Shown here: one piece after another, positions 8,692 through 14,300 of the stretch
Layout of the letters: each line of letters opens with the position of its first letter
Position numbering within the stretch: the stretch's first letter is position 1
Virus record (IMG/VR): IMGVR_UViG_3300030109_002187
Span: 1 to 38,375 of that record
Source: a virus
Length of the DNA: 38,375 nucleotides
Direction: 5' to 3' (one strand)
Made by a program: the position numbers and the translations under genes
Notes under the pieces: generated by a model
The model's input: the letters and a program-made list of their open reading frames with translations, nothing else
Told to the model about the DNA's origin: nothing
Databases searched by the model: none

Positions 8692-9168
8692 ATGGTAGAC
8701 TTTGGGGATGCTTATTATCCTAATTTTTTAGGAAATGACAGACAATCTGTTCCTGCTGGTAGATACACTGCCACTATTACAGACCTTTCTATATCTGAGA
8801 ATGTCATATTCGGTAATTATATTGCTGATATATTTAAACCTGAATATACTATCGACAAAAAAGAACATCCCCCTTACGATGGTTGTTCAGTGATAGATAA
8901 TGGCATTTTCAGATATAAAAAAGTAGATAACTATGAATATAGTCATAATAAAAACTGGGGGTATGCTAAATTCTTGTCCTGCATGGGACTCCGCAAAAAA
9001 GATAAGGAGGGTGGACAACTGCCCTTCTTATCTAAAAAGGATATAAATGGAGCACAAGTATTAATAGATGTATTTATAAAGAAATTTATAAATGATCTTG
9101 ATTCTGATGTTTCATACCCAGTGGCAAGAGTAATACAACTACAAAGAAGTAAGGATGTTCCGTTTTAA
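8692..9168 (+). CDS. Putative single-stranded DNA-binding protein (158 aa)
   Basis: The protein begins MVDFGDAYYPNFLGND with a beta-rich core, and ends RSKDVPF. The acidic-to-VPF tip recalls the DDIPF-type tail through which bacterial and phage SSB proteins recruit partners. A WGYAKFLSCMGL helix sits mid-protein. Related phage proteins next to Cas4-like nucleases are often called ssDNA-binding or DUF669-like. The position between two nucleases supports the role; an OB fold cannot be confirmed by eye. Stop overlaps the next start (TAATG). Confidence 0.55.
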   Translation: MVDFGDAYYPNFLGNDRQSVPAGRYTATITDLSISENVIFGNYIADIFKPEYTIDKKEHPPYDGCSVIDNGIFRYKKVDNYEYSHNKNWGYAKFLSCMGLRKKDKEGGQLPFLSKKDINGAQVLIDVFIKKFINDLDSDVSYPVARVIQLQRSKDVPF

Positions 9169-9626
9169 TGGACTTTGAAAAATCATTAATTATTGGTCAA
9201 GAATCTGAGGTTATTGTTTTAAATCAGATAAAGAAAAAATACCCTACAGCTTTTATAGTAGAGGGATATCATAAAGAATATGATATTATGATACCTGAAA
9301 TAAATAAGACAGTTGAGGTTAAGAAAGATTTTAAATCTCAACATACTGGCAATATTGTAATAGAAGTAGAGATGAATAATAAACCATCAGGATTATCTAC
9401 TACTACTGCTGATTGGTGGGTAATTCACCCTGAAGAATCTGAATTGATATGGATAACACCTGATAGGATAAGAGAAATGTTAGACTTTGAAGATTTAAAT
9501 GTTGTTGATTTTATAGGTAAGGGAGATGATGTGAGTAAGTTAGCGTATTTAGTCCCTATTAAATACATATATCTATACTCAGATAAAATACAAGAATTAG
9601 AAATAGAAGAGGATGATTTATTATGA
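9168..9626 (+). CDS. PD-(D/E)XK endonuclease (152 aa)
   Basis: Residues E14, D39 (EYDIMIPE) and E50-V-K52 (TVEVKKD) give the full E...D...ExK signature of the PD-(D/E)XK nuclease superfamily. The following strand IVIEVEMN and the TTTADWWVIHPEE segment are usual for phage members. It may act as a resolvase or a structure-specific endonuclease, fitting the recombination neighbourhood. The C-terminus is acidic (EIEEDDLL). Coupled by ATGA to the next gene. Confidence 0.75.
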   Translation: MDFEKSLIIGQESEVIVLNQIKKKYPTAFIVEGYHKEYDIMIPEINKTVEVKKDFKSQHTGNIVIEVEMNNKPSGLSTTTADWWVIHPEESELIWITPDRIREMLDFEDLNVVDFIGKGDDVSKLAYLVPIKYIYLYSDKIQELEIEEDDLL

Positions 9627-9883
9627 GAAAACAAAAATGCATAGCAAATATAAAATTCTCTCAACAAGAAGTTGAGTTAATGATAAACGCATTACAGAAT
9701 CAAATTAGATTTGAGATTCCATATCAAGATACATCTGATTGGAGAAAACCTTACGAAAGCCTTATTAAAGACTTAAAAGAAATAAAGTCTAAAATGATAG
9801 CAAAAATAGACGAAGCAATAGTAAATCGTGAGAGCGAAACAACTTCTACAATCCAAGGTTCAGTGTGTGAGGTGTGTGATTAA
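9623..9883 (+). CDS. Hypothetical protein with C-terminal CxxC (86 aa)
   Basis: Coupled on both sides (ATGA at 9623, TAATG at 9883). It is mostly helical, with a FSQQEVELMINALQNQI helix and a Lys-rich second helix, ending in SVCEVCD. The lone CxxC pair could bind metal in a dimer. No family is recognised. Confidence 0.6.
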   Translation: MRKQKCIANIKFSQQEVELMINALQNQIRFEIPYQDTSDWRKPYESLIKDLKEIKSKMIAKIDEAIVNRESETTSTIQGSVCEVCD

Positions 9884-10038
9884 TGAAAAAAGTAATGCAA
9901 AAGAAAGTAATAGATGGTTATGAAGTTGTGAACTATTTATACGAGTGCAAAGATTGTGAATTTAATTATTGGGCAGAGACTAAGAATTTATTTATGAGCT
10001 GTCCTAAATGTAGAGAAGAACTGGAGTTAGCTTTATGA
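9883..10038 (+). CDS. Zinc-ribbon microprotein (51 aa)
   Basis: ATG at 9883 overlaps the previous stop, and its TGA overlaps the next start. C22/C25 (YECKDCEF) and C40/C43 (SCPKCREE) form a complete rubredoxin-like zinc ribbon with a 14-residue knuckle spacing. The N-terminus is basic. A small nucleic-acid or protein adaptor is likely, in a module of nucleases. Confidence 0.65.
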   Translation: MKKVMQKKVIDGYEVVNYLYECKDCEFNYWAETKNLFMSCPKCREELELAL

Positions 10039-10361
10039 AAAATAAAGAAAATGTAAGAAGAGGTAGAAGAGCAAGACAAAGAGGTGCTGAATTACAGAGA
10101 CAAGCTGTACGCATGGCAAAAGATGCAGGTCTAGAAGCTTTTAATCGTGATAGAGGCGGTGCTCAACATGAACAAGGTGATATAGAAATTGAAGGACATT
10201 GGTATGGATGTAAAAGAAGAACTCGCATTGCTAAATGGTTAAAACCTGAAAAAGAAGAAGAAGGTGTAGTTGTAAGAGAAGATCGAGGAAAACCATTCAT
10301 TGTCTTAGATTACGAATACTTTATAAATATACTATCTATTATGAAAGAACTAGCTAAATAA
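10035..10361 (+). CDS. PD-(D/E)XK-like / resolvase-like protein with a missing catalytic acid (108 aa)
   Basis: A basic N-terminus (RRGRRARQRGAELQRQAV) carries E19; QGDIEIEG carries D49; then HWYGCKRR. In relatives this last motif is usually WH-I-E-C-K-R or similar, with an acid two residues before the lysine. Here that position is G58 (G58-C59-K60). The C-terminal VVVREDRGKPFIVLDYEYF strand pair is typical of the family, which is often labelled phage endonuclease or Holliday-junction resolvase-like. Overall match is good; catalytic competence is doubtful. Confidence 0.6.
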   Translation: MKNKENVRRGRRARQRGAELQRQAVRMAKDAGLEAFNRDRGGAQHEQGDIEIEGHWYGCKRRTRIAKWLKPEKEEEGVVVREDRGKPFIVLDYEYFINILSIMKELAK

Positions 10362-10375
10362 TTTTTTAAAACAAA

Positions 10376-10485
10376 GAGATGGTTTGCTTTGTAAGAATTT
10401 TCTTTAACATTTTATACAATGGTTTAAATATGTTAAAAGAAGAGGTTCTATAATAAGATTGGCTAATCTTAAAGTAAACCATCTC
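10376..10485 (+). ncRNA. Candidate structured RNA, three-way junction leader
   Basis: P1 pairs GAGATGGTTTGCTTT (10376-10390) with AAAGTAAACCATCTC (10471-10485), 15 bp with one G-U. P2 pairs 10394-10410 with 10430-10449: 17 bp with two small bulges (GG at 10444-10445, A at 10438) and a 19-base loop. P3 is AAGATT (10455-10460), loop GGCT, AATCTT (10465-10470). Most of the 142-base gap is thus paired, and P1 ends a few bases before the AAAAGGAG of the next gene. It matches no riboswitch class I know. The wobble pairs favour + strand RNA over a DNA cruciform. Confidence 0.6.
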
Positions 10486-10503
10486 ATAAAAAGGAGAATC
10501 AGC

Positions 10504-10716
10504 ATGGCTGAATACAAACAAAAAGACCAGAGCTTTAAGCTTTGGAAAAACAAGTATAAGAATGAGGGAGACAAAAAACCCGATTATACTGGCAACGGAT
10601 TGATCAATGGAGAGAAAAAAGATATATCTCTATGGATTAATGAAGATAAAAATGGTCAGAGATTCTTATCAGGGCAGATAAACGAACCTTATAAAAAAGA
10701 AGAAGCATCATTCTAA
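10504..10716 (+). CDS. Small SSB-like / DUF736-like phage protein (70 aa)
   Basis: ATG at 10504 follows AAAAGGAGAATCAGC. An in-frame GTG- or TTG-type upstream start near 10459 would run through the structured leader and is unlikely. A KPDYTGNGLINGEKKDISLW stretch, then EDKNGQRFLSGQI, resembles small phage beta-barrel proteins with a 'K-P-D-x-T-G ... W-x-N-E-D-K-x-G-x-x-F-x-S' pattern. These often carry an acidic tail; here it ends KKEEASF. A DNA-binding role is possible. Terminator follows. Confidence 0.65.
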   Translation: MAEYKQKDQSFKLWKNKYKNEGDKKPDYTGNGLINGEKKDISLWINEDKNGQRFLSGQINEPYKKEEASF

Positions 10717-10733
10717 GCTTTTTAGGTTCAATT

Positions 10734-10765
10734 ATAAATAAGGGGGATAAAACCCCCTTATTTAT
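10734..10765 (+). terminator. Intrinsic terminator of the left arm operon
   Basis: Bases 10734-10746 (ending in GGGGG) pair with 10753-10765 (starting CCCCC) over 13 bp around the loop ATAAAA. T-rich text (TTATAATATTTTT) follows. This is a strong rho-independent terminator for the recombination block. Two further genes lie downstream of it. Confidence 0.85.
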
Positions 10766-10848
10766 TTATAATATTTTTAGGCGATACTTACATCGAAAAA
10801 CTTTTTTTATGGCTGTAAACTTGAGATTAGAGGCACTTTTTCAGAGCA

Positions 10849-11106
10849 GTGTTTGAAATTTGTAGCAAAACAGATAGAATGTGTGCATTTTGTTCAAAGA
10901 GTACATGGAATCCTTACAAACAAGATTATAATGGTGATGAGGTATTGTTTTGTGGTGTTTCTTCAGGCTTTGATACTAGGGTTGATGCTTTAGATGAGTG
11001 CTGGCTTAATATGACAAAGTCAAGAAGAAGTTTATTTACTAAAAAGAAAAGAGAAGAATATCAACTTATACAAGCAAGTGGGGAGAATAATGGATATACT
11101 AGATGA
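10849..11106 (+). CDS. Cys-rich hypothetical protein (85 aa)
   Basis: The frame opens with a GTG at 10849 that lacks a good ribosome site; an internal ATG at residue 11 is an alternative start. C12/C15 (MCAFC), C35 and C51 could bind zinc. The C-terminus is Lys/Arg-rich (KSRRSLFTKKKREEY). A small helper protein of unknown role, placed after the terminator; no promoter is obvious in the 80 bases upstream. Confidence 0.5.
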   Translation: MFEICSKTDRMCAFCSKSTWNPYKQDYNGDEVLFCGVSSGFDTRVDALDECWLNMTKSRRSLFTKKKREEYQLIQASGENNGYTR

Positions 11107-11329
11107 TTTTGAAAATTTACCAACCGAGTCATCAAATTGGAAAAAAGATCCTTTTGAGATATATGAATATATTTCAGAAGAACAACAAACTGAGCTAATG
11201 TCTTTAATTATGAAATGTTTAGGTAGGAGAATGCCTACCAATCAATACTATAAAAAGATAAGTAAATTTTGGAGAGATATAGGAGAAGATGAATTTGCTG
11301 ATGAATTATTATTAAAGATAGAGAATTAA
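11090..11329 (+). CDS. Hypothetical acidic helical protein (79 aa)
   Basis: ATG at 11090 is preceded by GGGGAGAATA, better than an in-frame GTG at 11078. The gene overlaps the previous one by 17 bases. The protein is acidic with helical segments (EEQQTELMSLIMKCLGRRM, then KISKFWRDIGEDEFADELL). Its stop overlaps the stop of the opposite-strand virion gene. Confidence 0.6.
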   Translation: MDILDDFENLPTESSNWKKDPFEIYEYISEEQQTELMSLIMKCLGRRMPTNQYYKKISKFWRDIGEDEFADELLLKIEN

Positions 11330-14300
11330 GGTCGTTGACCCTTTTTTATTTTATTTATCATATAATCTGTTATTCTTGTTGGACTCCAATCTTCTGGCAA
11401 TATAGGGTTTTCATTACCAAATGCATTATTAAAGTTCTCAATAATTCTAAAAGCTTTATCACTATCACCATCTATTATTGCCTGCTTTACTTCTGGTAAT
11501 CTAACTTGCTTCAATCTTTTAACGTAAGCCTCTCTTTGACCCTTAGCATATTTTCTTTCAAATCTCTCCAATCCTCTTCTTGGTATCGTTCCTAGTAATG
11601 GTGAAATATATTTAGGTGCTCTAAGTGCTGCACCTATTCCATATGTTTTTGTGTCATTTAAAGTTCTATTAAAAGCACTCCATATTTTATCAAAATCTTG
11701 TACAACCGCTGGTTTAAATGCAAACTCTAATGCTCTTATTCTATTTTCATTTGCTACTATATCTCCAATAACACCAAATGCACCAACAGAAGCAAACCTA
11801 TCAATAAAATCTTCCATTGTAAATTCTCTCATATCAACATCTTGACTCATGCCTCTAGATGTCATTGGTATTGCCTCTGGTAAATCTTTAAATAATAAAA
11901 ATCTATTGTTATCATACACCTTATTACCTGATATGTACTCTGCTAAAAAATCCCTAGCCCAAGTAACCATCTCTCCACCCGCCATACCAGCTGCTGCTAA
12001 TCTCAACATAGGAAATAAATTACCACGTTTTACCTCCATAGTAAGTTGTTCTCTCATCCAGTTAGCTTGCTTAAATCCAAACTTTTTAAATAGAAAAAAT
12101 GGTCGCCATCTTGGATCTAGCATAGCCGAAGCTTCATTAATAACATTTCTTTGTAACTGACTATCTCTTGATAATCTATACATAGCTTCTAGCTCAAGTT
12201 GTTTTCCTTTTTTGCTTTTTAAATTTATAGTGTGATCATTAATACCTAATTCTTTTAAATTTTCTATAGCCCAGTTTCTTCTATTCATCTTAGCACCACC
12301 AAATATAGAAGGTATTCCAATATCTACTAACGAGCTCTTATTGTTAGCTGTTTTCTGTAATGCAGATACCCATTCTTTAGCTGCTGCTGCTGATACTAAC
12401 TGATTAACTTTATTAGCAAATTGAAACCCAGTTGCTTTTGTGGTTATGTTTGCAAAAGTAGAAGTCCATCCTTCAGTTGGTTCTAAACCTGCAATTAGTT
12501 GAAATACGCTAAGATTAGAAACTCCAGATTTTCTTATTTCATCTCTGTATTTTTTACCCTCCTTTGTTGGCATAGCCATTTTTAAAGTACCTTTTATAAG
12601 AGGCATATATCCTGTTTTTACAGCAGTAGATATAAACAACTGAGTAATATTAGGAACTACAGCAAATCCTAATCCTATTTTTGTACCTATTTCTAAATTA
12701 GTTACATCGCTCCAAAACTTTCTAGCGGTAGGTGTTTTCCAGTTATATGTTCTGTCTATTTCTATTTGATTAGTATAAGATTTAAATAGTTGGTCTAATA
12801 ATCTAGCTTCTTCTGATAGTCTTTGTGATAATTTAAAATTTTGAGATATTTGTTGTTTAGCAGCTTGCCTAACACCAGCTATTCGACCATACATTTTTTC
12901 ACCTCTACTACCAAACATTTCAACAAAAGATATTCTTCTTGATAGTTGTTTTGTATATCTAGCAAGTACAAGCCTAGCATCTCTTTCTAAAAATTGCTTT
13001 GGTATCCTATCTGCTGTTCTTGAAATTTCAGCATTCTTAGCTACATTATGATATTCCACAGTAACTCTTTCATTTAGTTCATGTAACGCTTTAGAAACTT
13101 TCCTGTTATATTCTTTAGGGTTATCAACAATAATTGTCTCTATTACATTTCCCTTAGAATCTTTAACTTTTCTTTTTTTAACCCCTCCAAGATCTTCTAA
13201 AACTAAAATAGTATTAGGGTCTAATTTTTTGTTTTTAATATAACTTGAAACAACATCTTGAAATGATTTTTTATTAACTGAATTTTTATCAAATAACAAA
13301 GATGGATTTTCAGAACCTATTTTTGCTATATCTTTAGTAAACTTAGCTAAAAACTCAGGTTTTATCATTTTTGGAAAATAATTTTCTTCGTATTTACCAA
13401 GGTTAACACCGGCTTCTTCTGCCCTATCCCATATATTTTTAAGTACTTTTTTTATTCTTAAAACCTCATCAAAATATGGTAACTCCCTGCCAAGTTTTGT
13501 ATTATTAGGATTATATCGTGGGTCTTCTAAAGCATCAGCTATTTTAGAAGCTTTTTCATTTTGTTTTTTCTTTTTAAATAAACCACCCTCAAGAAGTCCA
13601 GTTGCTCTCAGTTCCTGTATAAATGTACCTAATGTAGTTAATTCTAAAGCATCAGCTTTATTAAATTCTCTTATTGCAAGCTCTCCAAGCTGTGTAGTTA
13701 CTCTATTTTTAGATTGCCTCCAAGCTTTAGGCATGGTAGGTAGTAAGTCGTCTAAGAATCTTTTTTTAGGAAGTAAATCCCCCTCCCAACCAGACTTAGT
13801 AAAAGAATCTTTTAAATCAAATACTCTTTTTTCATGCCTAAGTTCATTTAATAATTTTACTTGCTCTATGGCAGTCAATCCTTTTAATCCCCTAGGATCT
13901 TTTTTATCTAAAGACCCTTCTAATTTAGCAACCCCAGCATATTCTTTTATCTTATCATCGCTAAGACCTAGTAATTTTTGAAGTTTTGTAATCTTAGCAT
14001 TTCTTCCCCTAGCCAACCCTTCTGGTGTTTTAGCAGAACTTTCTCTTCTAAACATAGCTCTATTAAAATCATCATAAGAAACAATTTCTTCTTTTTGTGT
14101 TTCTTTATCTCTTAAAGTAACTTTTTTATCTTTATCATTAAATTTTAAATTATCATATTTTCTATTATTTTTATTTATAAATACTTCTTCTGATTCTGTT
14201 GCTTTTCTAAAAGAAGGTATTTTTTTTTCAGCATCTGGTTGTTTTTCCATAAACCATCTAGCCGCTGTCTCTGCATCCATAATACTATCATATTTTTTAG

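Follow-up and report, generated by a model that had tools for sequence, protein, structure and literature searches.

Structured leaders that control the synthesis of a single-stranded DNA-binding protein (SSB) are well documented for T4-like phages only. In T4 and RB69, gp32 regulates its own production from a folded element followed by an A+U-rich ribosome-binding site; the operator consists of a pseudoknot of about 28 nt, situated about 67 nt upstream, together with UUAAA repeats, and is bound by the 301-aa SSB (PMC535899, PMC3014915). The gene 32 pseudoknot may be the sole viral pseudoknot involved in autoregulation, and whether other SSBs regulate mRNAs is described as not known in the T4 literature (PMC535899, PMC3014915). 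The gp43 operator of the same two phages, which also mediates autogenous repression, is a single hairpin of 16-18 nt with conserved loop letters (loop UAAC) (PMC3014915). A candidate RNA called STAXI, found near SSB genes of mobile elements, is made of tandem pseudoknots with UUCG tetraloops and has mixed gene neighbours (PMC2864571).

The locus studied here belongs to the window, i.e. the whole 38,375-nt stretch of the viral record IMGVR_UViG_3300030109_002187, and occupies a 142-base gap between a RusA-like resolvase gene and a gene for a 70-aa SSB-like protein (Table 1). The original prediction, made from the letters alone, was that nearly all of this gap folds into an RNA with three arms, P1, P2 and P3. 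This was confirmed: the fold of 10360-10505 reaches -34.7 kcal/mol versus -19.8 +/- 3.0 for 200 dinucleotide shuffles, none of which was as good (z = -5.0), and all three arms are present in the minimum-free-energy structure as first described. P1 comprises 15 contiguous pairs plus one G.U and, as had been noticed, halts directly before AAAAGGAG; it competes with P3 over 1-2 bases at 10470-10471. The absence of any riboswitch or non-coding RNA class that could be named for this fold also agrees with our search of Rfam 15, in which the window and 12 related loci gave no match at the gathering threshold, the best hits at E<=10 being far below it. At the DNA level, positions 9000-12000 of the window had no match in the phage collection.

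Table 1. Coordinates of the leader RNA, its parts and the adjoining genes in the window
Feature	Position	Strand	Remarks
RusA-like resolvase gene	10035-10361		PHROG 244
P1 5' arm (GAGAUGGUUUGCUUUG)	10376-10391	+	Pairs with 10470-10485
P2, long irregular hairpin	10394-10449	+	Minimum-free-energy fold; lineage-specific insertion
P3 hairpin, AAGAUU-GGCU-AAUCUU	10454-10471	+	From the fold; loop GGCU at 10461-10464
UUGGC motif, in or beside the P3 loop	10459-10463	+	Near-invariant UUGG(C/U) across relatives
P1 3' arm (UAAAGUAAACCAUCUC)	10470-10485	+	Ends 18 nt before the SSB ATG at 10504
A-rich unstructured ribosome-binding site	10486-10503	+	Shine-Dalgarno AGGAG at 10492-10496
70-aa SSB-like protein, GDKKPDYTG family	10504-10716	+	PHROG 18154 'single strand DNA binding protein', E 7.5e-5
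Terminator-like hairpin after SSB	10733-10765	+	AATAAGGGGG..CCCCCTTATT, then T-rich sequence

A search with the SSB protein brought 77 viral loci. Among the 62 close relatives with enough upstream sequence (the window included), 60 have a long helix within the ~100 bases that precede the SSB gene, and its end lies mostly 16-20 nt from the AUG, or 24-32 nt in a few lineages. The helix is kept while its sequence is not, as can be seen from widely divergent pairs of P1 arms such as GAGAUGGUU/AACCAUCUC, GGGCAGGCU/AGUUUGCCC, GGGCGACCU/AGGUUGCCC, GUGGGCUAGG/CUUAGCCCAC, AUGGGUUAG/CUAACCCAU and UAUGAUGAUUC/GAAUCAUCAUA. The helix score is 35 for the window and 28.8 on average for the 62 SSB leaders, versus 17.4 +/- 3.2 upstream of 479 other ORFs of the same contigs. 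A chance fold is thus rejected on three grounds: the shuffles, the comparison of SSB leaders with other ORFs, and the covariation described below. A covariance model seeded with 16 relatives recovers the window with E 1e-4, along with 58 further loci; searched over whole records, it finds one strong match per phage, extra matches being at chance level. The three-way junction proposed originally does describe the window, but it does not define the class: among relatives P2 varies in sequence and in size and may be missing altogether (it is shorter in L002-L011 and L038-L048, and absent in L067 and L088), so that the junction is optional.

In an alignment of 44 distinct rows, P1 is paired in 98.6% of the cases and 11 of its 12 modelled pairs are changed on both sides; its covariation score is 0.67, versus 0.25 for shuffled rows and at most 0.14 when slid. 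Fitting this alignment to the covariance model biases it towards pairing; the raw arms, however, show the same without any model, and the 16-relative seed alone, aligned with MAFFT, also passes the covariation test. Directly above P1, a second segment, P1b, is paired in 78% of the cases, and each of its six modelled pairs has changed on both sides. The family to which the window belongs has no internal loop there, P1 continuing upward instead. Covariation was seen for P3 as well (see below), and it supports the structured RNA of the original prediction. Within P1 there are 65 G.U pairs for a single A.C mismatch; selection thus acts on the + strand RNA, the same strand that carries the SSB message. 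That the functional molecule is the + strand RNA, as had been proposed from the G-U pairs of the window, is therefore borne out by the pattern of substitutions, and the same asymmetry led us to reject a DNA cruciform, a replication origin or an antisense RNA; of the functions suggested at the outset, a cis-acting riboregulator fits best and a DNA structure linked to replication is disfavoured.

The GGCU loop first described for P3 is present in the window, but the informative part, the one that is conserved, is the motif UUGG(C/U), hereafter UUGGY. It is found in nearly all elements, the exceptions being L020 (UGGU) and L060 (UGGC). In relatives with a hexaloop register, all six pairs of the P3 stem are doubly changed, the stem is 87% paired and the score is 0.85 versus 0.26 for shuffled rows; since this set was chosen for the hexaloop register, the test leans towards structure. 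The presentation of the motif varies. In the window and some relatives its two U pair with AA, leaving a loop GGCU or GGCG, and in families where the leader overlaps a gene the P3 hairpin is weak and UUGGC is mostly single-stranded.

The overlapping gene, Orf70 (about 70 aa; L001, L013, L016, L041 and others), lies about 230 bases before SSB and is absent from the window's family. In many relatives its frame extends across the element and ends at the 3' arm of P1, so that its last third shares bases with the structured RNA and is under a dual coding and RNA constraint. Its protein, however, cannot account for the conservation of the motif, because the frame of UUGGC differs between families (frame 0, giving Leu-Ala, in one; frame 2, giving Trp-Leu, in others) and the motif is non-coding in the window and in L022/L038-type and L067-type phages. 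Conservation due solely to Orf70 was therefore rejected, the more so as the 3' arm of P1 lies largely past the Orf70 stop and as L056, L059 and L091 possess Orf70 and lack the RNA. Two pairings with the start region were also considered. The UUGGC loop could, by inspection, pair with codon 2 (GCCGA/GCUGA) in some families, but this is impossible in L067 and L088; the 3' arm of P1 could, again in some families, hide the start codon by pairing with AUGGCU, but this fails in L067, L022 and L060. Being lost in several lineages, neither is general.

The element is linked to the SSB gene, which is always found downstream of it, rather than to the gene on its other side. Upstream stand RusA, Orf70, a homologue of 9623-9883 of the window, a RuvC-like gene with a short ORF, or a TYNPNF gene, and the upstream gene has been lost or replaced several times. 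The original prediction would have been refuted by relatives that conserve the flanking genes and lose the pairing; we see the opposite, since the pairing is kept while the neighbours change. In one relative (L060, 2283-2762), a resolvase identified by eye as of RuvC type (IIIGIDPGRSGAI) occupies the place of the RusA-like gene, as if one Holliday-junction enzyme had been exchanged for another. A second, independent sample, collected with the RusA-like protein instead of SSB as query, gave divergent phages in which SSB is much less similar to that of the window. The model built on the first set finds four of these (L192, L193, L206 and L208; E < 0.02), directly before SSB, and inspection adds L179, L195, L198, L199-L201, L203-L205, L207 and L212, nearly all with UUGGY (L200 has UGGC only) and many with other upstream genes. 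The model search gave no match in the RusA-bearing contigs that are devoid of an SSB gene (L202, L215 and L216).

The distribution also has its gaps. Three close relatives by their SSB (L056, L059 and L091) keep Orf70 and SSB and have no helix, with a fold z between near 0 and -1.3; the element is therefore dispensable for some phages. No convincing element was seen before more distant SSB types (L064, L066, L210, L211, L214, L224-L234, L135 and L136), those of isolated phages included, and we found no isolated phage or host that carries one. A DNA pattern scan returned five extra contigs, none with the element. Among the genome contigs of the GTDB collection, only L091, from a Marinimicrobia MAG (DKQR01000126.1), has this SSB and gene order. 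This sole cellular contig, which belongs to the element-free type, is probably a binned phage contig, and its origin is a weak hint at the host.

The identification of the 70-aa protein as an SSB is of moderate strength: it has matches to PHROG SSB families (E 7.5e-5 and 0.023), and its phage homologues are annotated as SSB and adjoin Sak-like or Erf recombination genes. Its AlphaFold model has four strands (pLDDT 76); compared with the PDB it gave no significant fold match and no confident OB fold. The terminator-like hairpin after SSB is kept in most relatives, with compensatory pairs, although more + strand genes follow it, so that SSB may end its own transcript. Beyond the hairpin, the intergenic positions 10775-10850 keep their sequence (TTTAGGCGATACTTAYATCNAAAAA ... 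TTTTATGGCTRTAAACG ... TAGAGG) among relatives, those devoid of the leader RNA included. This block showed no conserved fold and may be a phage promoter or belong to the start site of the next gene.

How does this leader compare with the systems described above? Like the gp32 operator, it is a folded leader of a phage SSB gene (to the extent that the 70-aa protein is one) followed by an A-rich unstructured ribosome-binding site, here of the AUAAAUAGGAG type. Averaged over 34 leaders with the element, the predicted ensembles leave the Shine-Dalgarno sequence unpaired with a probability of 0.69 (window: 0.56), and the AUG is mostly open. Sequence diverges between relatives in both cases, while function is kept between T4 and RB69, and both are missing from some relatives, RB49 for the gp32 operator and L056, L059 and L091 here. 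The RNA itself is nevertheless unrelated. Among the covarying helices, P1, P1b and P3, which are nested, no conserved 5' pseudoknot of the gp32 type was found, and pairing between loop and start region is not kept; instead, a stem of ~65-110 nt carries a UUGGY hairpin, P1 ends 16-32 nt from the AUG, and the putative binder is an unrelated protein of 70 aa. With the gp43 operator the element shares a conserved-loop hairpin upstream of the ribosome-binding site of a replication protein, but the gp43 operator has another loop and no basal P1. It is also distinct from STAXI, being a single nested element with no Rfam match, in place of at least two tandem pseudoknots with UUCG loops. For a folded leader controlling a phage SSB there is one well-known precedent, T4 gp32.

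The reading that we favour, with a probability of about 0.42, is that of a cis-acting mRNA leader controlling SSB translation, in which the UUGGY hairpin serves as an operator bound by a protein, likeliest SSB itself. Several observations speak for such a leader: the covariation of P1 and P3, the strand, a position 16-32 nt before the AUG, the single copy per record, the persistence under swaps of the upstream gene, the lack of a match in RusA contigs without SSB, and the conservation of UUGGY whatever its reading frame. P1 would stand at the upstream edge of the 30S footprint and present P3 with its UUGGY. In the ligand-free state, Shine-Dalgarno and AUG would be mostly open and SSB would be made; the predicted openness of these sites suggests that the default state is probably 'on' and that a bound partner is needed for 'off'. 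A protein sitting on the UUGGY hairpin and spreading over the A-rich ribosome-binding site that borders P1 could then block initiation. Fixed loop letters on a stem of variable sequence are the usual signature of a protein-binding hairpin, as the gp43 operator illustrates (PMC3014915), and SSB is a natural candidate for the ligand because gp32 plays this part in T4 and RB69. The likeliest repressor would thus be SSB itself, once single-stranded DNA is saturated, in an autogenous control similar to that of gp32 exerted through an unrelated RNA. The main arguments against a tight recognition between SSB and RNA are the element-free group of L056 and the fact that the SSBs of L013 and L057 group with other leader types in a poorly resolved tree; such shuffling of leader and SSB subtypes argues against their tight co-evolution.

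Two other explanations are serious rivals to this operator, even though we regard each of them as unlikely. One is that the leader is a processing site of the RNase III type. The RNase III sites of T7 offer a precedent: like the present element, they are long irregular helices that lie where two phage genes meet, just in front of a ribosome-binding site. A nuclease specific for double strands would cut the irregular helix of ~17-20 bp formed by P1 and the second stem, freeing an SSB mRNA with a defined 5' end from the upstream message. Nearly all lineages do have a long helix whatever its sequence, in many cases interrupted by a small internal loop, and the position at a gene boundary, together with the terminator-like hairpin after SSB, makes a discrete SSB message plausible. 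But putative cleavage leaves unexplained the near-invariant UUGGY and its covarying stem; the T7 sites are not known to have a conserved loop sequence, and in some lineages the helix falls short of the length of classical RNase III substrates (11 + 5 bp in L067). The other serious rival, to which we give similarly low odds, needs no ligand: the stem would shield the SSB ribosome-binding site from pairing with upstream coding RNA and keep this site single-stranded for fast loading. It would account for P1 abutting the ribosome footprint and for the predicted openness of Shine-Dalgarno and AUG, and insulation would be useful in the several lineages where the upstream ORF runs through the element to the 3' arm of P1. 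However, a plain hairpin would suffice for this task, which gives no reason for UUGGY and a separate P3 to be conserved, and no convincing copy was found elsewhere in these phage records.

A riboswitch for a small molecule or a tRNA appears very improbable. UGG(C/U) resembles the UGGN bulge with which T-boxes pair with the NCCA end of tRNA, and UUGGY could do the same or form a ligand pocket. Yet of the T-box features (Stem I specifier, UGGN bulge, antiterminator) we find just UGGY; there is no Rfam match to a T-box or riboswitch, and no alternative fold that sequesters the ribosome-binding site is conserved, the start-codon pairings being lost in L067 and L022, for example. We give the least credit to a trans-acting small RNA or an origin-like DNA structure that merely happens to lie near SSB. 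The fold is compact, and a processed RNA could do without a terminator; the strict spacing to the SSB start codon, the excess of G.U over A.C, hard to reconcile with selection on DNA or on the antisense strand, and the restriction of the element among RusA relatives to those with SSB all stand against it.

In any case the structured RNA is a real class that Rfam does not contain; in uncultured phages it is tied to a single SSB family, and annotators gain a model for it. Our literature search found no description of it, although some survey of structured virus RNAs may already list it. A strongly covarying RNA is fixed to a small SSB, unrelated to gp32, in dozens of uncultured viruses, with element-free relatives as natural controls; short synthetic RNAs and a protein of 70 aa thus allow a direct test of whether SSB autocontrol is general. 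It is a tentative, rather doubtful extension of the operator reading that we are dealing with a new class of RNA operators that a deep lineage of uncultured phages has retained, with the 70-aa SSB recognising the UUGGY hairpin on its own mRNA, an arrangement that would have been invented independently. If true, a normally unspecific single-strand binder would match its own supply to the amount of exposed single-stranded DNA.
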